Positions 5,498 to 38,704 of a DNA stretch of 64,000 bases are shown piece after piece. Location: positions 3,807,501 through 3,871,500 of the forward strand of contig CM067529.1 in the NCBI GenBank assembly GCA_034509925.1. The letters run 5' to 3'. Origin of the DNA: Hirudinaria manillensis. Lineage: Eukaryota > Annelida > Clitellata > Hirudinida > Hirudinidae. Each line of letters begins with the position of its first letter. Within the stretch, counting starts at the first letter, position 1. The translations under genes and the position numbers were made by a program. The notes under the pieces were generated by a model. The model had not been told where the DNA came from, searched no databases, and saw only the letters and a program-made list of their open reading frames with translations.

Positions 5498-8334
5498 CGT
5501 CACGGGATGAATGTGGAAAGATTGTTTTGACACGCGATCCGATAAAACTTTCGGGCTTTGAAAACTTTCAAAGGACAATTTATCTCTCGTGGGCGTCACT
5601 GAGTTGTGATCTCCAGCATTGCTCCTCAATCCCCATGCCCGCCCCAGTGGGCATTAGAAGGAGGTTGAAGGAAGGGGTGGTTGACTTGTGCACTCAGTCC
5701 CCACCCTAAGACCGCACCTCTGGGGACAGCTTAGATCATCTTTGACGAATTGCGGCTCTGATTTTTTGCTGTTTTCAGCATTTTCTTCCGATTCCGAGAG
5801 AGGGACTGAAGCAATAAGCAGATTAAAGAGGGAAGGTTCATTAATTCCTGGCCATTAAAGGATAATACGAATTCTGTCGGCGAAGAATGACTGTAGGACA
5901 GAGCCCAATAAATGACGACGACGACGATGATGATGACAGTGACGACGACGACAACGTCAGATCCTTCAAAACTCTGCACTCGAGAGAGGAGCGAAGGTCG
6001 TTGAAACTTTCGACAATTTGTCGGTTCATCGAGTGGAAAGGGGAACTTTTAACCCCTGTCAATTGATGAAAAGTGACTGAGGAGAGGACTGAAGGGGTGG
6101 GTGGATGAGTGGATGGATGGGTGGATGGATGGGTGGATGGATGGGTGGATGGATGGGTGGTAAATGAGTTGATGATCGTGTACATGAGCGTGAGTGAAGA
6201 AGTGAGAACAAAAAAAAAGAAAAAAAACGAAAAGAACAGACGGATGACTCACTTGGGCAAACACAATTACATTTTTCAAGAGAAGTTCAGAATGAAATTG
6301 GAGACAAACATTTCTCGGTCCCGTGGAATGTTGGAGCTTTTAATTTATTTCGGATGAACGGTGGATTGAAGAGTGAATGAATGAATGAATGAATGAATGA
6401 ATGAATGAATGAATATATGAGTGAATGAAAGAATAAAAGAAGGAAAGAATGAGCGATGAAGCACCGAAAGCACTTAATTAATAAGATGAAAGATACACCT
6501 AGGAGCGGAGACTGTAATAAGTTGAAGATTAAATTCAACTTTGATGTATTCGAGTGTGGAACATTCAGGTCGAACATTGATTGATGGCACTCTGCGGGTA
6601 GGGGTGGAAGGGTACGTGCCTGCTTTCCAGATAAGCCGGATGGACGGATGGGCGGATGGATTGCTGGCTGGACGGATATATCGCTCAGTTAATATGTGAA
6701 TGAATGTATTGACGGATACGTCTAGAGATGAATGGATAGATGGATGGATGGATGTGTTTAGTGATTTTAGATTTAATGTTGTTATTAGGTGAGGACTGAA
6801 GTCATAGCGCCGTCTGATCTGTCAGCACGAATTCGTCATCATCATCATTAACGTCATCGTCGTCGTCGTCATCAGCACCATCACCAGCGCAACCGTCATC
6901 ATCACCAGTGCGATCATGATAATTGAATTTCAAACATTCTGAGTCTTGGTTCTTTTGTGTTTACATTGTATAAAGTACTCGTTCTTAGCGCACTCCAAGC
7001 AAATAATTAGGAATTGATCGCTGGATTGCCGTCATCGTCGTTGTCGTCGTCTTCGTCGTCATGAACATCAGCATCGTAACAGTTTGTCGTCTTCATTACC
7101 ATTTCTATTAACTAAACAACCTCCCTAACATCGTCATCAGTATAACCATCGTCGTCGTCGTCGTCGTCGTCGTCGTCATCCTCTACGACATGTGATGAGT
7201 TTAAGGGTCACGCATTAACCGGTGCGCGGCTTTTGAGTTTGTCTCCTTTTTGGGAGATAACAGCTTGATATAGATTTCCTTTTGAGGACAACGCATCGCT
7301 CATTGTTTCATTTGATCTGAACTTCTTGGCTGTGGTAGATAAAGCCGGTGTCGCTGTGGCGTGTGAAGCCAGAGCGGTAGTCGATGCCTATTATAATGGT
7401 ATTCTGCATTTCCTTCGTCTGAGTCGATCTATTCTCGTGCACCGAAACGTAAACAGGGTGCGTTTTGTTGTTTTTTTTTCTGTTTTTGTTTTTCGTTTGT
7501 TGATAATGATGTTGTTGTCGTCGTCGCTGTTGTCGTTCGGTTCGTCTGCCAAGGTGCGTGTGATCTGACTCACCTGGTTTCCTGTCCTCTCAGACTATTT
7601 CGCACGCCGCCGGTTCTTCACGAAGTCGCTTGAACGAACGAACGAACGAACGAATGGATGGATGGATGGATGGACTGATGATTGAATGAACGAATAATTG
7701 AATGGTTGGATGAATGGATGGATGGATGGATGGATGGATGGATGAACAGGGAGAACATGTGGTAGAAGCGAACTGAGCTAAGTTTACAACAAATCGCTTT
7801 CCAAATCTTTTATTTTTTTCACAAATTTCTAAAAAAAGAAAATTTTTTTTGGTTACGAATTTTGGAGTTTTTAAACTTCTCGGGTTTAACAATTTACTCC
7901 CAAAAGAAGACAATTGGAGCATGAAAGTTGGAAAAGTAGGAAAAGAATTTTGTTTGTCTGTCATTCTTTGTCTTACTGGGTGTCAGTCTATCTGTATTTC
8001 TCCGTGCCTTTTGATAAATTTGCACGTCCCTGACTTCTGTCACTAAGTGCACGCCAATTATGTTGCTCATTAAAGCTAATTAAAATATAATTAGAGCCAA
8101 TGGTGTTGTGGTTATTAGAAAGCAATTGGAATAAGCCAGAGAGAGATTCATACAATTTCAACTCACTCAGATTTTTTTTAATATCGAAAAAGCAGTACAT
8201 CTAAACAATTGCACACAGACAGACATACATACATACACACACACGGATACGCATAAGGATCAACACCGTCATAGACACAAACATCTAGACGGACAAAGAC
8301 ACTGGTAGGTGCACATACTGGCATGGATAATCAT

Positions 8335-22453: not shown

Positions 22454-26673
<4,220 letters not shown>

Positions 26674-27026: not shown

Positions 27027-27686
27027 TCATTCCTCGTCCGCCAGGATCATGGAAATATCCGTACTCCAATTCAGTTGCGGAGCGGCATGACTGGTGTCCT
27101 GATTGAAGCTGTACGAGAGAAAGGAATTGTCCCCCAAATTTGACCTCGGAGTGGCAGAGTTCATGCTCCATTCTATCGGCCTCTCCACGAAACTGGTCTC
27201 GTCGGGTTCGTCGAGCTTCGAAGCGCACTCATAGATCTTTGAGAATGCACTCCGGCAAATCGGGCAGGTGCCTTGACTTTTAGACCAAGTGAAGATGCAG
27301 TTGTAGTGGTACTCGTGCATACAGCCGTTGACCCTGGTCGGTTTCTGAATCCCTCCAAAGCATATGGCACATCTGTTCTCCCCATTGCTTATACCAGAGA
27401 TGTCTAATCCTGGGCTCGAAGCCGTTGACGAAATGTTACCTTTCGTCGGAGGTGACTGGAAAGCTAGTCTTTCCCGGAAGAAGCTCCTCGGAGCTTCCGG
27501 TCTTGTCTCGTGGTTGACCCTAGGGGGAGCCTTCAGTCCTTGAAAGTGTCTCATCTCTTCGGGCATTTCATCCGTTGGGGTCACCATCAACGGTACATTT
27601 CTTGAGGAGGATGTTTCCGGTGTTGAAGTAAAAAGATGCGACACTTTTCCTTGTAAATCTTCCCAAACCCGTCTCCACTTGTCCAT
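27027..27686 (-). CDS. RING-H2 zinc finger protein, probable E3 ubiquitin ligase
   Basis: A single-exon 219-codon frame starting at ATG (27,684-27,686). Residues 106-144 form a canonical RING-H2: Cys106, Cys109, Cys122, His124, His127, Cys130, Cys141 and Cys144, with C-x2-C-x12-C-x-H-x2-H-x2-C-x10-C-x2-C spacing. The stretch Trp-Ser-Lys-Ser after Cys130, then Cys-Pro-Ile-Cys, resembles TOPORS-type RINGs. RING proteins of this kind bind an E2 and promote ubiquitin transfer; the substrate is unknown. The N-terminal 100 residues are Ser/Pro-rich and probably disordered. There is no membrane segment. Outside the RING I recognise nothing, so the precise family is open. It is head to head with CHD1L, with 625 bp between start codons, so a shared promoter is likely. 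Confidence 0.82.
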   Translation of the reverse strand: MDKWRRVWEDLQGKVSHLFTSTPETSSSRNVPLMVTPTDEMPEEMRHFQGLKAPPRVNHETRPEAPRSFFRERLAFQSPPTKGNISSTASSPGLDISGISNGENRCAICFGGIQKPTRVNGCMHEYHYNCIFTWSKSQGTCPICRSAFSKIYECASKLDEPDETSFVERPIEWSMNSATPRSNLGDNSFLSYSFNQDTSHAAPQLNWSTDISMILADEE

Positions 27687-28311
27687 GACTGTTTTGCCTA
27701 TTAACCTTTCTTTTATTTCTGCAAGTTCTTTTTAATGTAATGTATTTGAGCTAAACAAAAGATTGAAAGCATACGTCTTAAAATTTAAAATTTTCTAAAA
27801 ATGTGTTTGTAAAGTTTTAAGCTTTAAGCACTAAAACTTTTTAAATGCTTGATAGAATCATATTACTTAAGAGTAATTAAAAACACGGTTGGGGTTTTTC
27901 CATTTCCATGCCTACAAGTCAGACAATCTATTGTTATCCAAAAATATGTTTAGAGTGTTAATTTTTAAGGGATGGACAATGTCCAGTGCACATCCTTATT
28001 GTGGCGAAAATTACCCATAAAAGTGTTACATAATTTCAGCAAATTTCAAAGGCGATTTCCGATGAAATAAAAGTTTAGTTATTGTTACTGAAACCTCTTC
28101 ACGATGTCTTTGTGGCTAAGCAAGCTACCAACAATTCCAATTAAAAAATATTTACAGCAATAGTACAAAGCTTTAGAGTTTGAATTTGATTTGTACTAAT
28201 ATAATTTAATATATTTCTTATCGATTTGTTTACGTTGTGAACGGGGGAAATGGAGGGAGATATTTTGTTTTCGTTTTTTCCGGTATTTTGGTTTAGGCCT
28301 TTTTGGGTTCA
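27687..28311. promoter_or_regulatory. Probable bidirectional promoter of the RING gene and CHD1L
   Basis: 625 bp separate two divergent ATG codons. The interval is repeat-poor and AT-rich, with no TATA box at a plausible distance. Bidirectionality is inferred from arrangement only. Confidence 0.45.
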
Positions 28312-31300
28312 ATGGAAAGAATAAAAGAACTGGTAGAATTAAAAAGGAAACAAATTAAGTTGATTGACGAAGATAAGAATTTTGTCATCAGTCAGGATGT
28401 TCTAGAGGAATGTGGTCTGCAAAGTTGGTCAAACGTTTAACGCTTTTGTGCGATTTTCCAATCTGTACCCAAGTATTCGAGTTTTCTTTTCTTGTTCTAA
28501 AAGATATCCAATTGAGGCCCTACCAGTTGGAAGGCATAAAGTGGTTGGTTACAAGATTCAAAGCTCAAATGGGCAGCATATTAGCTGATGAGATGGGTCT
28601 TGGAAAAACTTGCCAAGTAATTTTATTAAATTAATCGTTAAGAGCACTTTAAAAAATATAACAGTTTTAATATTAATGACTGGTTTTCTACTGAAGGCCA
28701 TATCATTCTTGACTTATCTCTATGGGAGCAAAGCCATCACAGGGCCATCTTTGATTTTGTTACCTCTGTCTGTCGTTCACAACTGGAAGCTCGAATTATC
28801 CAAGTAAAATTTTTATGACAAACCGAATTTATTTTCACATGTCCATTTGTTTCAAAATTCAACTCTTGCAATTTATGCTAACTAATCAATAATCTATTTT
28901 CTTTTTGGAATTTCATTAAGTTTGATTTTATTTAATTTTATATTAGTAAGTAATCTATTTCAGAAAAGTATCTTCACTACATAGATATTTTACATAACAA
29001 AGATTTTTTTTTTAATATTTAAACATACTGGAATTGATGTCAAACTCCAGTCAAAAAGTGGTCACATATTTTTGAAAAATGCTGAAACCCTCTGAAACCA
29101 GACATATCTGGATTCCAGATTCTCTCCAAACTTGAAATTCCTCACTTATGTAGGAAACAAGGAGGAGAGGGAGGATTTGAGGCGGAGTCACAAATGCGAT
29201 CTCAATGATGGAAACATCCAATTGCTCTTGACAACTTACGAGGTACTTTGAACAAATACAAAATTGACTTTTAACTGCTAGTTTTGATTTTGAGATTAAA
29301 ACTTTGTTTGGCATATGTCATTTAAAATATTTTAAAAATTAAAATGATTAAAATTAGAATTTATAAATTGAAATCAAATAGGTTTCATTGGTATACATAA
29401 TTAAAATGTTATAAGAATTTATTATTAATTTATTGCTAATGAAAACGTTAAGAAGATTACACTGATTACTGCTGGATATAATCTGTCATAACTACTGTGA
29501 TAATAATTTTCTCTTCCTTATAATAAACCTATAATAAATTAGTATTATCAACAGAATAATAACAAAATAGTTTCTTGTAATGTACAAATGTCCGCATAAT
29601 TAATTTTAAGCCATCATAACTTTCCATCTTGAAACAGATCTGCTTGAAAGACGAGTCATTCTTGGCCTCCTTCAATTGGGAGTCAATCGTTGTTGACGAG
29701 GCACATCGATTGAAAAACGATCAATCGATGCTCCACATGGGACTGATTGAAGTACTTGATTGTCAACTTAACTGATTGTTGATTGATGTTGACATAGCTT
29801 GCAAATAAGAAAAAATATTTAAACAATGTTTTGCCATTGATTAATTTCATTGGCCTAATTTGACTTCCAAGTATTATTTTCCCAAGGAAAAACTTAATTA
29901 ATTTCCCGATAAAGCGTGCATTAATTTGTTATTTTGCTGATATTTGAAGCAAAATTCGTTATTTTTTTGTGATTAAAATATTATAATAAAATATTGCATA
30001 AAAATATTTTAATTAAAGTTCAGCATTAATCACTGGCTGTTGCTCACGGGGACCCCGATTCAGAACAACTTGAGGGAGTTGTACTCGTTGTTGTCGTTGT
30101 GTTGTTGTGACATCTTCAAGTCAGAACGTCGTCAAAGCTTCCTTGACTTCTATGAGAACTTGACTTCTGAAGAGAGCGGTCTGTGGAGTTGTTGTTGTTG
30201 TTGTGTCTGTGGAGTTGTTGTTGTTGTTGTGTCTGTGGAGTTGTTGTTGTTGTTATTATGTCTGTGGAGTTGTTATTGTGTCTGTGGAGTTGTTGTTGTT
30301 ATTGTGTCTGTGGAGTTGTTGTTGTTGTTATTGTGTCTGTGGAGTTGTTGTTGTTGTTATTGTGTCTGTGGAGTTGTTGTTATTGTGTCTGTGGAGTTGT
30401 TGTTATTGTGTCTGTGGAGTTGTTGTTGTTGTTATTGTGTCTGTGGAGTTGTTGTTGTTGTTGTTGTGTCTATGGAGTTGTTGTTGTTATTGTGTCTGTG
30501 GAGTTGTTGTTGTTGTTATTGTGTCTGTGGAGTTGTTGTTGTTGTTATTGTGTCTGTGGAGTTGTTGTTGTTATTGTGTCTGTGGAGTTGTTGTTGTTGT
30601 TATTGTGTCTGTGGAGTTGTTGTTGTTATTGTGTCTGTGGAGTTGTTGTTGTTATTGTGTCTGTGGAGTTGTTGTTGTTATTGTGTCTGTGGAGTTGTTG
30701 TTGTTGTAGTTGAGTGAATGTTAAATGTTTAAGGGAGTTTGATGGCTTATAATTATAATTGAATATTATTGATTGCAATGGAACATGATTTGATCATGAG
30801 GTAGAGCAATCAAATGTGTTGTAAATAAGCTAATACAAATAAACTTAATTTTTATTAAATTTATGTTTTAATAATTCAATTTCAACTCTTAAGTCCCGGG
30901 CCACGATAATAGTAAATCTGGAAAATGCATATGCTACATCTTAACAGATATCAAGTCCATCATTGAAGACATCATCATCAGGAGGCTCAAATCCCAAGTA
31001 CTGCTTGACCTTCCAGAAAGGTCAGAGGTCATTCTCTACCATGGCCTGACCCCATTGCAGAGCAGATACTACAGAGCCATACTTGCCAAGGATATCGGTC
31101 AGCCAATTGATTGATTTTATCTGAAACTTATTTGAATTTTAACTTAATTATTTTTAATGGATTAAATAATTAAACCTCAATTAATTCTAATGGATTAATT
31201 CAATAATTAAACCTTATTAAGCAATTCAATTGAATTAATTCCATCCTGTCCGTCGTAACATTTCTTCAGAATGCAAATCTCTTGCAGAAATATTTCAAGG

Positions 31301-34300
31301 AAATTCAATGAAGAAGAGGAATAGGCTGATGAACATACTCATGGAGCTGAGGAAATGCGTCTGCCATCCTTACCTCTTTGACGGTCAGTAGCGATGATGA
31401 TTGTGATGATGATGATCCTGATAAAGTTCTTTAGATTTCCAAGTCCCCAGTAATATGGAGATATCAGAGTTTTATTGCTTCTAAGGCTGTTTTTTAACGA
31501 TTTATTTAAAACGTTATTTTAATGAGACTAAAAAAAATAAAGTCTGTCGGTTGCCATCATCAGGAGTTGAACCCGAACCCTTCGAGCTGGGAGAGCACCT
31601 CGTCGAAGCCAGCGGCAAACTGTCGCTGCTCGACGGTCTACTCGAGCATCTCAAGTCGACGGGTCACAAAGTCCTTCTGTTCTCGCAGATGACTTCGCAC
31701 CTCGACATCGTCCAGGACTACATGGCGCTCAGAAGTGAGTGTCGGTGACGGTCAATCGACTGGGTTGATTGACGAGGCTTTGATTGAGAACTGATTGAAC
31801 TTTTTTTTGTTAAGTCATCAGAATGAAGTTGCATTACCTTGCCACGAGTTTGATCTTTGACCTGCCTGCAATTGCTTTTGGCAACCACTATTAGCAGTCA
31901 TCAGACTGGTCGTATCACTATCATCATCATATTCATAATCATTACGATCCCAGATCCCAAAAGCATTGTCTTCATATTCCACATACCACCATCATCATCA
32001 CCACCTCACTCGAAATCCAACAGGATATTCGTACGAGAGACTCGACGGTTCCGTCCGCTCCGAAGAGAGGAACGTCGCCGTCAACGACTTCAATCGAAAC
32101 GACTCGACTTTCGCCTTCCTCCTCAGCACGAGGGCAGGAGGTCAAGGACTCAACCTGACCTCCGCAGACACCGTCGTCTTCCTCGATGGCGACTTCAACC
32201 CCCAGAACGACCTCCAAGCTGCTGCCAGGGCCCACAGGATTGGTCAGAAAAGGTTACTCGAATATGCGATTAGGATCTACGGGCGTCCAATCGGATTCAT
32301 GGGTTTTATTTTTAAGGCATAATTAATTTAGAATTCTTTTCAAGGTGAAGTTAAATTCTATAAAGCTTTGTTGACAAGATTAAGTGTTTTTTTTTAAACT
32401 ATTACAAAAATTTATGATGTGATGCTTTCATTTCGCTTGTTTATGTTGCAAGATTTTTGTAAAATTTATTAAAAGGATCAACAAAAATATATTTCAAAAA
32501 AGTTTGAAATTACCTGGCAGTTAATAATAAATGTGCTTTTAGGAACGTCAAAGTCATAAGACTGGTGGGAAGACATTCCGTGGAAGAGATGATCCTGAAA
32601 AGAGCAGACGCCAAATTGCGGCTCACCAGGGCCGTCATGGCCGAGGCAGACGACTCTGAGGACCAGGCAAAGGTCGGTCATTTTGATTATTACAAATAAT
32701 TACAAATTAACTTCGATAATAATATTAAGTTTATATGTTATCACGGGCAGTCTGATATTTATTTTATATAACATTGGCTTTGGTAATAATTATCATAATA
32801 TGTGTGAATAGTGTATGATTATAACTACCACAATATATGCAAATAACATGTGAATATTAATATCTCATGAATAATTAATCGACCAGCTCGAGGACATCAT
32901 CAAGTTCGGACTTGAGAAACTGTTCACGGGGAATCAGGACTCGGTCGTGGATTTTGAGGCCATCTTGGGGAGGAGTGTCAATGGGGAGTGGGTTGGTTGT
33001 TTGGTGATGATTATGATGACGATGTGGTGGTGGTGGTGGTGATAGTGGTCTTTATGGCACTGGTGATAGCTGTGGTAATGATGATTATTAATTAATATGT
33101 ATTTCATGTTCTTTAATCAGGAATAAATTTCTTTTTTGTAATATTTATTTATTAAAAGTTTTAAAAAAAACCCTGTTCAAGGTCAGCACTGGAAAAATGG
33201 AGGACATTGAGTCCAAAACCAGGTCCCTGATCGTCCAAAGTTCTGATGAAATCCACGCTCCGAGCTGCAGCGGCATTCGTGATCGCCATGACGATGACGG
33301 AAACTTGGCGCCGAGTGTGGCAGACGAGAACGCCTTCGATGAAATTCTTGAAGGTGATGAAATCGAATTATGAATTATTAACGAGTGCATGATCGCCACA
33401 AATAATAATGATAATAATAATAATAATAATAATAATTAATTCGTAACAATATTTTAGCATTGAATTGAACATTAAATATATCATTTCGTATCCAATGATA
33501 TTCAGAAGAAATGTCAAAGAGACATCTCCCAGGTGTCTCGTCATTCGATGATGATGATGATGATGATGATGATGCCGGATCAAGGTGGACTCGAAGGAAC
33601 AAGACCCTGGTTGGTCTTCAGGTCTTGAGGGACAAGACCAGGAAGCCCAGGGCCCCTCTCACAGCTGAGCAGCTTGAGGAGAGAAGGAAGAAGGTTTTTG
33701 CATTTATTATTATTATTATTATTATTATTGTGGTTATTATATTATACATTCTGTTATTATATTATATATTTTATTTTTAGTTATTATAATATTAATTGCC
33801 TAATATATATATCTGGTTGGTGCTTTTAATTTCTCAAATGTCTTTGAAAATGAATTTCTCGTGCAAGTTGGTGAGAGGTATTTGACAGCGTTTCCATGGT
33901 GACGATGATGACGATGATAATTATAGTAATGGTGACAATTATTCCATTGTCTGATTTCAGAGACTGGAAAGGATTGCAATGACGGAACGATTGAAGGAAG
34001 AGAAAAGGAGCTCTAGGGAGGAGGAAAGAAGGAAAAGGAGGTGAACGAACAAAATATAAAAGTTTTAATCTTAAATAGACGAGGTGTACGGATTTTTATT
34101 GTGATTTTTTATTGTTATATTTTTATTTATTATATTTTTAAAAAAATATTTTTTATCTCCAAACATGTCTTACAGGTTGAAGCTGTGGAAGGAAAATGGC
34201 TACTCGTCATCAAAACTCGTTTCATCAGATGACGATGAAGATGATGATGATGATGACATCAGCAGCAATAGAGGTCGTGACCTCGAATCAAACGGTTCTA

Positions 34301-36864
34301 CTGATGACGACGATGAAGTTCCTGATAATGATGGTGATGATATCGACATCACCTCCAATCATCTTCATTATGTTGTTGGTGATGTCACCAGACCAGCTGT
34401 CGATGACGTCATGAAGAAGGGGCGTGGCCAAGTCCTGATCGTTCACTGCGTTGGTGAGCCTGTCTTGCCGATAATTTATTTTATTATAATAACCATTAAT
34501 AATTTAATTTAATCCAAGGATTATTATAATTCGTAAAAGATTCCATGATAGTTTTATTTGTAAACGCGTTCGGTTGTGGATGCAGATTCGAGATTCTGTC
34601 GGTCATGCGAATTTAGTTCCAATCTTAATAAACATTAATAAGTTAACATTAAATATTAATAAGTCATTGATATTAATAAACATTATTAAATTATTACTCC
34701 ACGATGATGCAGACGACTCGGGCCATTGGGGCAAAGGCGGACTGTTCACGAGCATCCTGAAAAGGTCTCCGTACGTTGCGGAAAAGTACGAACTCGCTGG
34801 AAAAATGAACGGTTGGTTTTCCTTATCTGTTTTGATTTCTACCTCCCTGAGGTTGTTTTGGGAACTGGCATTTTGTTGTTGTTGTTGTTGTTGTCATTGT
34901 TGGTGTTAGTTCTTGACATGGGAGGTGGACCATTTTATAATATCACTCTTTCCATGAGTACCATGAGTGGAGCAATATAGACTTTGTTTCTGTAGTAATA
35001 CTGTGATGTAGTGTGACATCATCATCATCATCATTCATTCATAGATTCATTCATTCATTGAGAACATCAAACCATCCTAATGTGCACTCATTCGAACTTC
35101 CTCATTTTGCTTTTTTCAGATTTGAAACTCGGAGACGTTCACGTCTTTCCACTCGATGACAGAGGATGCGGAGATGAGCAGGTGATTATGATGATGATGG
35201 TGATGGTGGTGATGATGATGATGGTGGTGGTGGTGATGATGACAATGGTGTCGGTAGAGATTCTAATGCAGGTTGGCCAAATGTTCAAAAACTACGTTGC
35301 TTAAATGAATGAAGTGCACTTAAGTGGTTTTAAGACTAGAAGGATTAAATGAATTTAACTGTCGAAATCACAAATTTATTTATTTATTTATTTGTTTATT
35401 TATCTTCGACATCCGCCATACTCGACCGACTTGATTTCTTCTCCACAGCTGGTCCTACTGGTCGTGCAGACGAGGGACCGAAACAACAGACTCGAAGACA
35501 TCCACGCGACTCACCTTCGGCAGTCCTTCGAAAGGTTGTCCAAACGTGCCCGGAGGAACAAAGGTTACGAAGAGTTTGTGCCTCGTCGTTCTGGAGCCGA
35601 CGCGCGATTCCAATTCACCGATTGGATTTCAGTCGAATGAATGCATTTTACAATTTTAACGTTAATTCGATGAATGAATGAATGAATGAATGAATGAATG
35701 AATGAATGAATGAATGAATGAATGAATGAATGAATGAATGAATGAATGAATGAATGAATGAATGTTGTCATTTAATTAAATCTCAATTAATATTTTTTCC
35801 AGCCAGCCTCCATTTTCCTAGGATTGGACACAACTCCACCACCTTCGACTGGTATTCCACGGAAAGGATGATCAAAAAGTATTTCTCTTCGAGAAGCATC
35901 CACGCATTTGTGTATCCTTCTTCGGTCGCAGATTCAATTTTATAACCATTATTATAATCACATGTCTCATTACTATAACATATTTATGTCATAATTTAGG
36001 TGATGTAGATATAGCTTGTGAAGGACATTATGTTTGCAGACAAATCAAGCTTTTTCTTAACCCTTCCTTCTGTCGTTCCAAGCTACTATTATCCGAAGGG
36101 TTTTTCAGACTCGCAGAAGAGAAAATTGGACGTTGATGGTTACTGTTTTACTTTTATTGAGACTGACTTTTTGAAAATTTAATTACAAACGTGAACAGCT
36201 AATCAGGAATTAACCAGTACTAATTAGCTACTAATTAACCAACACTAATTAGCATAATAAATCGTAAACAGAAGCAAGCACGTCATCCTCCAAAAGACAA
36301 GCCCCGACCTCTGGAGTTCATTTCGGGGATCGGCTGAGCAGGGCTCTGCCAGATTTCCTGAGTGGGGTCTCCATTCACTTCTGGGGAGGAGAGGGTGACT
36401 TGGCAGCCCTTGATGATGAAGAAAAGAGGAAGATCGACTTCCTCAGTCGACTAGTTGTTGCGTATCCTTTTCAAACTTTTGTCCACATTTCCCTATGTTT
36501 TTTGTTAATTTATTTAATTTAAAGAAATTGCTAAATTGAAACAATCTAACAATAACCCACGTGACTTGACTTGACGACGTCAGCTATGACGGAGACGTGA
36601 AGAGTGCCTCATCAAGCCCCACCCATTTGATTCCAGTGGGAGGAGCTAGCACTGAGGTTATTCAAATTGACGTGTTTATTTCAACTAACAATTCTGAAAT
36701 CAGTTTACAATGACTAGCTAATCTGGTCAAAACTACCTTCCTGTGTTTGAAACTTTCAGCTTCCAGAAGATTTTGATGGCAAAGTCGTGAATTTGAAGTG
36801 GTTGTTGGACTCATTGAAGAACCAAAGAATGATGGAAGAAGATGAATATTCGATCAGGAATTAA
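28312..36864 (+). CDS. CHD1L: CHD1L/ALC1 chromatin remodeller with macro domain and extra BRCT
   Basis: PAR-activated SNF2-family nucleosome remodeller of the DNA-damage response. Twenty-four exons chain in frame to 1,051 codons: 28312-28423, 28504-28616, 28697-28803, 29119-29242, 29638-29751, 30019-30178, 30948-31097, 31270-31383, 31564-31734, 32024-32252, 32543-32672, 32887-32991, 33182-33353, 33506-33693, 33961-34040, 34176-34453, 34713-34811, 35120-35181, 35449-35563, 35803-35911, 36083-36138, 36272-36461, 36584-36656, 36760-36864. Walker A is DEMGLGKT (66-73), DEAH is 172-175, and helicase motif VI is [11 protein letters not shown] (453-463). An acidic linker contains Asp615-623. The macro domain (about 750-910) keeps the [11 protein letters not shown] loop. 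Human CHD1L (897 aa) ends soon after the macro domain; here a BRCT-like domain follows at about 955-1046. Intron 6 is a minisatellite. Confidence 0.96.
30179..30714 (+). repeat. 20-unit minisatellite GTCTGTGGAGTTGTTGTT(GTT)(ATT)
   Basis: Twenty copies of CTGTGGAG (one CTATGGAG) are each followed by two to five GTT and usually one ATT. Unit length varies from about 18 to 30 bp. The first unit starts at the exact 5' splice site of CHD1L exon 6. None of the three plus frames contains a stop, so three long apparent ORFs arise; they are intronic. Confidence 0.93.
33547..33573 (+). repeat. In-frame (GAT)9 coding microsatellite in CHD1L
   Basis: Nine GAT codons encode Asp615-623 inside exon 14, in the linker between the ATPase and the macro domain. 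A second, mixed GAT/GAC/GAA run follows in exon 16 (about 34,229-34,260). Confidence 0.9.
35670..35763. repeat. (AATG)n microsatellite in CHD1L intron 19
   Basis: About 94 bp of perfect AATG, starting about 105 bp after the end of exon 19. Confidence 0.95.
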
Positions 36865-37485
36865 TTTCAATTGCTGCATTTAAATTAGAACTGATGATTT
36901 GATTTTTTTCTTAAACAAAAGATTAATTTTTTATTCCATTTTCCGGGGATATTATGATGTTATTTAAACAATTGCTTACGAAGGAATGTGAAATAACGGG
37001 CGGGTCCGTGCCTTCGTGTGAATCAAGTTGACCCCACAAGACTAATTGTCTTGCAATGAGCCTAAAGTCTTTTTCATTTTTTTTCAAATTTTGGCTTCGC
37101 ATTTGGTAGAAATAGGAGTTGGGAATGCGCTCCGAAAGTTTCGCGGCTCTAGAATGAGTTTCGGCTGGGGTATCGGATTTTTCCAAAGCTATGAAACCAG
37201 AAATTGATTGAGAAGGCAAGGAAGCCACGTTTTAAGTTAAGAAGTTGGAGTCTTATATGATCTCATGCATTTCGGTCTTAACACTTTGTATGCATCTTTC
37301 GGTCTAAAACTTTACGGGTGACATAATTTTGAGATAAATTTTAAAAATTAATTTTAAAATAAACCTTATTTAAAAGCTAATAATATATTAAATTTGTATT
37401 AGTAGTAATAAATATGAAGGCTCTTCGATGTCCATGTGTGGTCATTTGGCCCCACACACAACACGTTCTGATTTTCGCTTATTCG
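36865..37485. other. Intergenic between CHD1L and RPS2
   Basis: The region is repeat-poor. A minus-strand open frame of about 100 codons (36,923-37,228) begins without an ATG and has no recognisable domain, so I do not call it. AATAAA hexamers on the plus strand near 37,360 and 37,407 are possible CHD1L poly(A) signals, although they are far from its stop. Confidence 0.45.
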
Positions 37486-37672: not shown

Positions 37673-38704
37673 ATGGCTGACGAAACATCGAGAGGAGGAT
37701 TCCGCGGTGGATTTGGAGATCGTGGTAGGGGTAGAGGAAGAGGCCGTGGCCGTGGTAGGGGTAGGGGCAGAGGAAGAGGCCAAGGAGACAAGGACGGAGC
37801 CAAGGAGTGGGTTCCAGTCACTAAGCTCGGAAGATTGGTAAAGGAAGGGAAGATCAAATCCATCGAGGAAATCTACTTGTTTTCATTTCCCATCAAGGTT
37901 TGTTCGAATAATTTTAATTATTACTTAGTTAATACTATAATTAATATGTTTGGTCGATTAAATTATTAATTCTCTATTCGCAGGAGGCTGAAATAATCGA
38001 CCACTTCTTCGGCAACAGTCTGAAGGATGAGGTACTTAAAATCATGCCCGTACAGAAACAGACGAGAGCCGGTCAAAGGACTAGATTCAAGGTACATTTC
38101 ATGTTCAAATATGTGTTATGTGAATAGATTTAACAGTTTTAATCTATTGTTCAGGCCTTCGTTGCTATCGGCGACTTCAACGGACACATCGGCTTGGGAG
38201 TCAAGTGCTCGAAAGAGGTTGCCACAGCCATCCGCGGAGCCATAACTTTGGCCAAACTTTCCCTCGTCCCAGTTCGATTGGGTTATTGGGGAAATAAGAT
38301 CGGCAAGCCACATACCGTTCCCTGCAAAGTTACCGGATATTGTGGAAGTGTCGAAGTGAGACTCATACCCGCACCAAGAGGTACCGGTATCGTCAGTGCT
38401 CCAGTACCGAAGAAACTTCTTCATATGGCCGGAGTTGAGGATTGCTACACATCTGCCAGCGGACAAACTGCCACTCTTGGAAACTTCGGTAGGTTTTATG
38501 ATTGTTGAATATCAGATGTTTTCTTGTTGACGCAGGTATCTGAACTCGACATGAATTTCTAATCTCGACCATTATTTTTCAGCCATGGCAACATACGAGG
38601 CCATTTCCAGCACATATTCCTACCTCACGCCCGATCTTTGGACAGAAACTACCTTCAAAAAGTCACCATACGAAGAATTCTCAGCTTTTCTTTCAAAGAA
38701 ATGA
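37673..38704 (+). CDS. RPS2: Small-subunit ribosomal protein uS5 (RPS2)
   Basis: Core component of the 40S subunit near the mRNA entry site. Four coding exons join in frame: 37673-37897, 37984-38091, 38155-38488 and 38583-38704, giving 262 codons. Residues about 8-40 are an Arg-Gly-rich tail typical of eukaryotic RPS2, a methylation substrate in other species. The S5 double-stranded RNA-binding region and the C-terminal S5 domain follow. The C terminus is shorter than in mammals (293 aa). The introns are tiny (86, 63 and 94 nt) compared with neighbouring genes. RPS2 introns host snoRNAs in mammals; I could not find clear C/D or H/ACA boxes here. Only 210 bp separate its stop from the iRhom start codon. 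Confidence 0.98.

Follow-up and report, generated by a model that had tools for sequence, protein, structure and literature searches.

A predicted BRCT domain behind the macro domain of the CHD1L orthologue of the annelid Hirudinaria manillensis

Human CHD1L (ALC1), the product of an oncogene and a target for drugs, is investigated as a protein made up of an ATPase and a macro domain, and binding of poly(ADP-ribose) by the macro domain frees the ATPase for nucleosome sliding. The human protein has 897 residues and stops right after the macro domain. This paper deals with the CHD1L gene in a stretch of 64,000 nucleotides from the annelid Hirudinaria manillensis (assembly GCA_034509925.1, contig CM067529.1, positions 3,807,501 to 3,871,500 of the forward strand; "the window" in the following). 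The predicted protein continues for about 120 residues past the macro domain, a tail encoded by exons 22 to 24 that appears to form a BRCT domain. An earlier note on this DNA had proposed a CHD1L orthologue with such a BRCT, resembling BRCT2 of XRCC1.

Autoinhibition of the ATPase by the macro domain is described for human CHD1L in the relevant passages of PMC8249414. Human CHD1L and LIG3 are placed in one S-phase pathway where PMC13284710 treats them, and a review (PMC10386641), in its part on these domains, has BRCT2 of XRCC1 pairing with the BRCT of LIG3 across their first helices. Our preferred reading, to which we give even chances as a whole, is that the CHD1L orthologue of H. manillensis carries one BRCT behind its macro domain, that this BRCT is most likely of the XRCC1-BRCT2/LIG3 class, and that it would dock on the XRCC1-LIG3 complex.

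The exon junctions of the gene were picked by eye from the three forward frames and were then borne out by the alignment with human CHD1L. The model comprises 24 exons (28312-36864, + strand) with 1051 codons plus stop and no internal stop; each of the 23 introns is GT-AG, and the phases are compatible. A phmmer search against solved structures gave human CHD1L as the best match (8.8e-234, query residues 28-917, with another human chain reaching 920), far ahead of the runner-up family, ISW1 (1.1e-128). The alignment to the human structures (PDB 7otq, 7enn, 7epu) covers the same SNF2 ATPase, linker and macro domain, and no solved human chain matches beyond query residue 920, in line with the remark of the earlier note that human CHD1L ends soon after the macro domain. 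Pfam finds SNF2-rel_dom (5.3e-70) and Helicase_C (2.7e-24), and none of the eight families that it lists for the whole protein (E-values up to 10) is a chromodomain. For the macro stretch no Pfam family is listed, and the macro domain rests on the alignment with human CHD1L, which runs through YYYPKG and includes GDVT (758) and GHWGKGGLF (786), presumably the ADP-ribose motifs. Because of the lead of human CHD1L over ISW1, the SNF2 and helicase-C domains and the macro alignment, the gene is predicted with confidence to be the CHD1L/ALC1 orthologue of this genome, as had been claimed. A single copy was found when the genome was searched with the macro end plus tail. The features of the gene are as follows.

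28312..28423, + strand: exon 1 with the start codon (gene model)
28504..32991, + strand: exons 2-12, SNF2 ATPase with DEMGLGKT at residue 66, DEAH at 172 and RAHRIGQ at 457 (Pfam, phmmer, motif positions)
33182..34040, + strand: exons 13-15, linker that joins the ATPase to the macro domain and contains acidic stretches and RWTRRNK (627; model, alignment with the human linker)
34176..36138, + strand: exons 16-21, end of the linker and macro domain with GDVT 758, GHWGKGGLF 786 and YYYPKG 912-917 (human alignment)
34176..36138, + strand: within the same exons, a short linker containing Lys/Arg after the macro domain (model)
35912..36271, + strand: exon 21 (36083-36138) and its two flanking introns, possible transcript end before the BRCT, AATAAA at 36256 (model)
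36272..36461, + strand: exon 22, linker and predicted BRCT strand 1, helix 1 and start of strand 2 (LPDFLSG to RLVVA), the XRCC1-BRCT2/LIG3-like half (model, alignments)
36584..36656, + strand: exon 23, predicted BRCT middle (YDGDV to SSPTHLIP; model, Pfam)
36760..36864, + strand: exon 24, predicted BRCT end with Trp1031 and TAA stop (model, alignments, motif position)

Secondary structure elements of the BRCT were assigned through alignment. Intron 6 opens inside a GTCTGTGGAGTTGTTG-type minisatellite at the exon 6 donor (window 30165-30715), in which all three forward frames are open and which could lead an automatic predictor to lengthen exon 6 wrongly. Searches outside the genome brought up little: with part of the ATPase as query, 81 pattern stretches were found in GTDB genome contigs, none of them confirmed as a relative; with the macro domain, one unconfirmed stretch was found in viral contigs; and a 21-residue macro piece, searched against the PDB, yielded no useful match.

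Exons 22 to 24 have AG acceptors, GT donors and entry phases of 1, 2 and 0; the stop codon is TAA (36862-36864), and the exon coordinates (36272-36461, 36584-36656, 36760-36864) are those of the earlier note. Read in frame, they score a codon log-odds of 0.465 per codon. For the 41 left-out blocks of exons 1-21, which overlap, the average is 0.495 and the values run from -0.013 to 0.744. Intron blocks, 138 in number, also overlapping and taken without the repeat-bearing intron 6, all stay below the score of the tail (maximum -0.168), and the other two frames of the tail give -0.002 and 0.107. The G+C content is 49% in the three exons versus 29% in introns, where a 63-codon open stretch occurs at 1.5% of positions. 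Exons 22 to 24 thus look coding, with codon statistics that match the rest of the gene, and we infer that a full isoform with the BRCT is translated.

The three exons might instead lie outside the CHD1L mRNA if transcripts stopped in or after exon 21, in which case the BRCT would be either a remnant or a small gene of its own. An AATAAA at 36256 lies just 16 bases upstream of exon 22, while the first one past the stop codon is at 37358, 494 bases off, and read-through from exon 21 into the following intron hits a stop within a few codons. Evidence to the contrary is that the frame and the phases are intact, that the codon bias is like that of the rest of CHD1L, that no in-frame ATG precedes the BRCT in exon 22, and that exons 21 and 22 are 133 bases apart. 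We therefore regard this explanation as very improbable, but the position of the AATAAA makes an additional, shorter isoform possible.

A Trp in the last helix and a pattern of Gly residues are hallmarks of BRCT domains. The tail has both: the first residues of LPDFLSG, YDGDV, THLI and KWLLDSL are 955, 994, 1006 and 1030, which places the Trp at 1031, and the closing Tyr is residue 1047 when counted from the end of the model. The motifs thus lie where the earlier note had placed them. We aligned the tail pairwise with 13 BRCTs and derived z values and counts from 1000 shuffles. Highest were the BRCTs of two phosphatase genes of this genome, which we take by reading to be FCP1/CTDP1 (FCP1b, z 9.7; FCP1a, z 7.7), followed by three XRCC1 BRCT2s (z 6.1-6.5), and none of the 1000 shuffles reached any of these scores. 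XRCC1 BRCT1 had a z of 5.5 (1/1000 shuffles) and the other seven ranged from 0.45 to 3.7 (8 to 312/1000). In hhalign comparisons with five BRCT profiles, the real score was never reached by 60 shuffles per profile. The combined XRCC1-BRCT2 and LIG3 profile gave 92% (P 6.2e-7), a profile made from five further BRCTs (FCP1s included) 94% (P 1.1e-7), and the single-family profiles 85% for FCP1 (P 6.1e-6), 43% for XRCC1 BRCT2 (P 2.5e-4) and 21% for LIG3 (P 1.1e-3). A hidden Markov model of the three XRCC1 BRCT2s gave a weak signal, with 11.0 bits for the tail and 7.8 for the highest-scoring shuffle among those reported (3429 of 5000).

Searches with general models were less clear. The earlier note had made a significant BRCT hit in a Pfam profile search the test of its claim, and among 24736 families the top one for the tail is indeed LIG3_BRCT (E 1.7e-4, 22.3-22.7 bits), which by that standard is a suggestive match. 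Several results count against a BRCT at this point. No BRCT model reaches its curated cut-off (LIG3_BRCT 22.3 of 27 bits, BRCT 14.1 of 21.3, BRCT_2 14.2 of 27.3), and exon-by-exon searches of the whole genome with BRCT and LIG3_BRCT list no CHD1L exon, although they miss the BRCT of the genome's own LIG3 too. Lesser Pfam matches are SepF, an unrelated family (0.019), BRCT_2 (0.054) and BRCT (0.057); for the full-length query LIG3_BRCT falls to 0.0035 and other BRCT models are unlisted. Against solved structures, phmmer puts weak BRCT matches first (TOPBP1 0.056, REV1 0.42). The missed cut-offs and the weak structure matches are what would be expected if the tail were an unrelated extension with a chance resemblance. 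On the other hand, chance is hard to reconcile with the counts of 0/1000 for both FCP1s and the three XRCC1 BRCT2s, with 0/60 in each of the five profile tests, and with the presence of Trp1031 and of two introns in common with LIG3 (see below), so that we consider an unrelated extension highly unlikely. The tail is, on all this, a divergent BRCT domain by prediction, and the claim of a BRCT after the macro domain stands.

The tail was also cut at the turn of strand 2, and the halves were compared separately with the 13 BRCTs. For the first half, BRCT2 of human (z 5.95) and mouse XRCC1 (z 5.71; 2/1000 shuffles each) came out best, followed by human LIG3 (3.84), XRCC1 BRCT2 of H. manillensis (3.68) and its LIG3 (2.57), with the remaining eight below 1. 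The features common to the tail and XRCC1 BRCT2 (PDB 1cdz, 3pc6) are the LPDFxxG start, the part from the first helix to the AYxG region and a phase-0 intron before the Trp strand. In contrast, the second half of XRCC1 BRCT2 is no nearer to the tail than other BRCTs, and its intron 1 lies three codons further on. The BRCT of LIG3 (PDB 3pc7, 6wh1) is like the tail in its top Pfam family and in YxGDV, and the H. manillensis gene also in both intron positions and phases; it differs in a low direct similarity (z 1.9 for the genome's own, 3.7 for the human one) and, in the genome's own LIG3, in having Leu where the Trp column is. This LIG3 BRCT, too, has LIG3_BRCT as its best family (46.2 bits), unlike XRCC1 BRCT1 of the same genome and both FCP1s. 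By sequence alone, XRCC1-BRCT2/LIG3 is a candidate class towards which the tail leans.

The intron positions point in the same direction. Intron 1 of the tail is in phase 2, inside the codon preceding YDGDV, and intron 2, in phase 0, is followed by a last exon whose 14th residue is the Trp. The LIG3 BRCT of H. manillensis has a phase-2 intron inside the codon preceding YGGDV and a phase-0 intron with the matching column (the Leu) as 13th residue; in its XRCC1 BRCT2, the phase-2 intron comes three codons later and the phase-0 intron has the Trp as 15th residue. Because the agreement at both places is hard to ascribe to chance, it suggests that the tail and the LIG3 BRCT derive from one intron-bearing BRCT. 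All eight BRCT exons from the whole-genome BRCT search lack an intron at the YxGDV place, but such a search favours BRCTs that are uninterrupted there and is an unfair control, so no probability was put on intron sharing. In a LIG4-like gene, identified via its ligase domain, one of the BRCTs also reads through this place.

A number of observations weigh against this class, some of them in favour of a real BRCT of another kind, i.e. a general single BRCT whose partner could be poly(ADP-ribose), DNA ends, a phosphoprotein or the protein itself. Over the whole tail the FCP1 BRCTs (z 9.7 and 7.7) outscore XRCC1 BRCT2 (6.1-6.5) and LIG3 (1.9-3.7), and the second half is closest to FCP1b (z 11.0), followed by FCP1a (7.1), XRCC1 BRCT1 (6.7), XRCC1 BRCT2 of H. 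manillensis (4.2) and LIG3 (0.1-0.5). The resemblance to XRCC1 BRCT2 that had been proposed thus holds specifically for the first half, while for the second half and the complete tail FCP1 comes out higher. The profile made from the five further BRCTs equals or exceeds that of XRCC1 BRCT2 plus LIG3 (P 1.1e-7 versus 6.2e-7), and the LIG3 of this genome is near chance over the whole tail in simple alignment (z 1.9, 53/1000 shuffles). FCP1a scores higher on LIG3_BRCT than the tail does (23.8 versus 22.7 bits), so the tail's match to this family is unspecific, and XRCC1 BRCT2 of H. manillensis favours BRCT_2 (47.1) and BRCT (37.2) over LIG3_BRCT (35.6). The tail also has nine extra residues relative to XRCC1 BRCT2 between the first strand and the first helix, and these adjoin the proposed docking face. 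A maximum-likelihood tree of 12 BRCTs (two of 14 were partial and were dropped) does not place the tail, with 36% for the split beside it; this tree pairs LIG3 of H. manillensis with PARP1 at 91%, which is implausible, and it is thus uninformative.

However, the similarity to the FCP1-like BRCTs comes mainly from VVNxxWLLDS, whereas their first half is at chance (z 0.15 and -0.12) and they lie in one exon. Among the 13 BRCTs, the first half of the tail resembles only XRCC1 BRCT2 and LIG3, both introns are as in the genome's own LIG3 while other BRCT exons read through the strand-2 region (in the biased comparison just described), and LIG3_BRCT is the top Pfam family. We give a BRCT outside the XRCC1/LIG3 class an appreciable chance that stays clearly below even.

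If the preferred assignment to the XRCC1-BRCT2/LIG3 class is correct, the protein may work as follows. PARP enzymes would modify nucleosomes at a nick, and the macro domain would bind the poly(ADP-ribose), upon which the ATPase would be released and the nucleosome slid. The BRCT could then dock the remodeller onto the XRCC1-LIG3 ligation complex via its first helix, using the face through which BRCT2 of XRCC1 and the BRCT of LIG3 contact one another. Given a real BRCT, docking to XRCC1 BRCT2 or LIG3 BRCT is the role we favour, since the first helix lies in that half of the tail which resembles these domains specifically, and we would put this role somewhat below an even chance. Phospho-binding BRCT pockets have a Ser or Thr after the first strand, where the tail reads FWGG and XRCC1 BRCT2 LYG; on that basis, FWGG would speak for a phosphate-independent contact. 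The BRCT class, the partner, the docking face and with them the link to the ligase III/XRCC1 branch drawn by the earlier note are what we infer from these comparisons. A point against them is that human CHD1L functions without a BRCT and is not needed to bring XRCC1 and LIG3, because both gather and are retained on chromatin upon loss of CHD1L, as reported in the pertinent passages of PMC13284710.

The proposed partners were searched for in the genome. XRCC1 lies near 4.735 Mb of contig C4, with two XRCC1_N exons above cut-off and BRCT exons downstream. A LIG3_BRCT-like match at C9:1943445 was considered as LIG3 and dropped, because the surrounding frame looks like that of an FCP1-type phosphatase; LIG3 itself was located through its ligase and zinc-finger exons near 7.087 Mb of C4, with a zf-PARP exon 2.5 kb upstream of the ligase exons. 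Two zf-PARP matches on contig C11, below the curated cut-off and about 4 kb ahead of a BRCT match, were taken as PARP1. By these predictions XRCC1, LIG3 and a PARP1-like gene are present, and the system into which a CHD1L BRCT could plug exists. CHD1L (3.84 Mb), XRCC1 (4.74 Mb) and LIG3 (7.09 Mb) are all on C4, which makes up 13.6 Mb of 148 Mb; this is possibly chance, and an origin of the CHD1L BRCT within the chromosome would fit.

Further observations concern the BRCTs used for comparison and the neighbourhood of the gene. The LIG3 BRCT of H. manillensis reads PELIWKC where human LIG3 has PEWIWAC, with the Leu in the usual Trp column of the last BRCT exon (L032, about 7026-7106), and the protein ends 11 residues past the remaining Trp. 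The two FCP1/CTDP1-like genes, at C9:1943445 and C4:9940954, each have their BRCT in a long single exon, and one could be a retrocopy. In the window, CHD1L is flanked by the following features.

About 22454-26673, + strand: multi-exon gene, presumably for an epimerase-type L-threonine 3-dehydrogenase-like protein
27027-27731, - strand: frame open over 234 codons from stop to stop, showing a RING-like Cys/His pattern and lying between the dehydrogenase gene and CHD1L
About 37674-38704, + strand: gene that we take to be ribosomal protein S2-like, starting about 800 bases past the CHD1L stop

The tail is probably no oddity of this lineage. Table 1 of PMC7934534 lists CHD1L of zebrafish with 1026 residues, human with 897, mouse 900, rat 926, chimpanzee 896, cattle 897, dog 918 and chicken 900. 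Compared by length only, the zebrafish protein (NP_956607.1) is thus 129 residues longer than the human one, about the size of the tail, which leaves room for a similar tail. Because of this extra length, the simplest story would be that the BRCT is ancestral in CHD1L and disappeared on the way to amniotes, as opposed to a gain in this lineage. Within the set of papers searched, no description of a BRCT in CHD1L came up, and the passages on CHD1L or BRCTs consulted in PMC5087659, PMC10317172, PMC2993927 and PMC6501648 mention none there; sequence databases may already flag one in zebrafish.

Taking this further, CHD1L may originally have been a built-in member of the XRCC1-LIG3 system, having acquired its BRCT with introns by duplication of a LIG3/XRCC1-type domain, with helix-to-helix pairing to XRCC1 BRCT2 or LIG3 that coupled sliding to ligation, until amniotes lost the domain and came to rely on poly(ADP-ribose) alone. 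This scenario is speculative and in our judgement rather unlikely, but it would explain why human CHD1L and LIG3 act in one pathway. If ancestral CHD1L bore a BRCT of the XRCC1/LIG3 class, the handover from remodelling to ligation would be testable by one binding experiment, and zebrafish, whose CHD1L is long enough to have kept the domain, would be better suited than mouse for this question. A CHD1L with a BRCT may tie nucleosome sliding to nick sealing.

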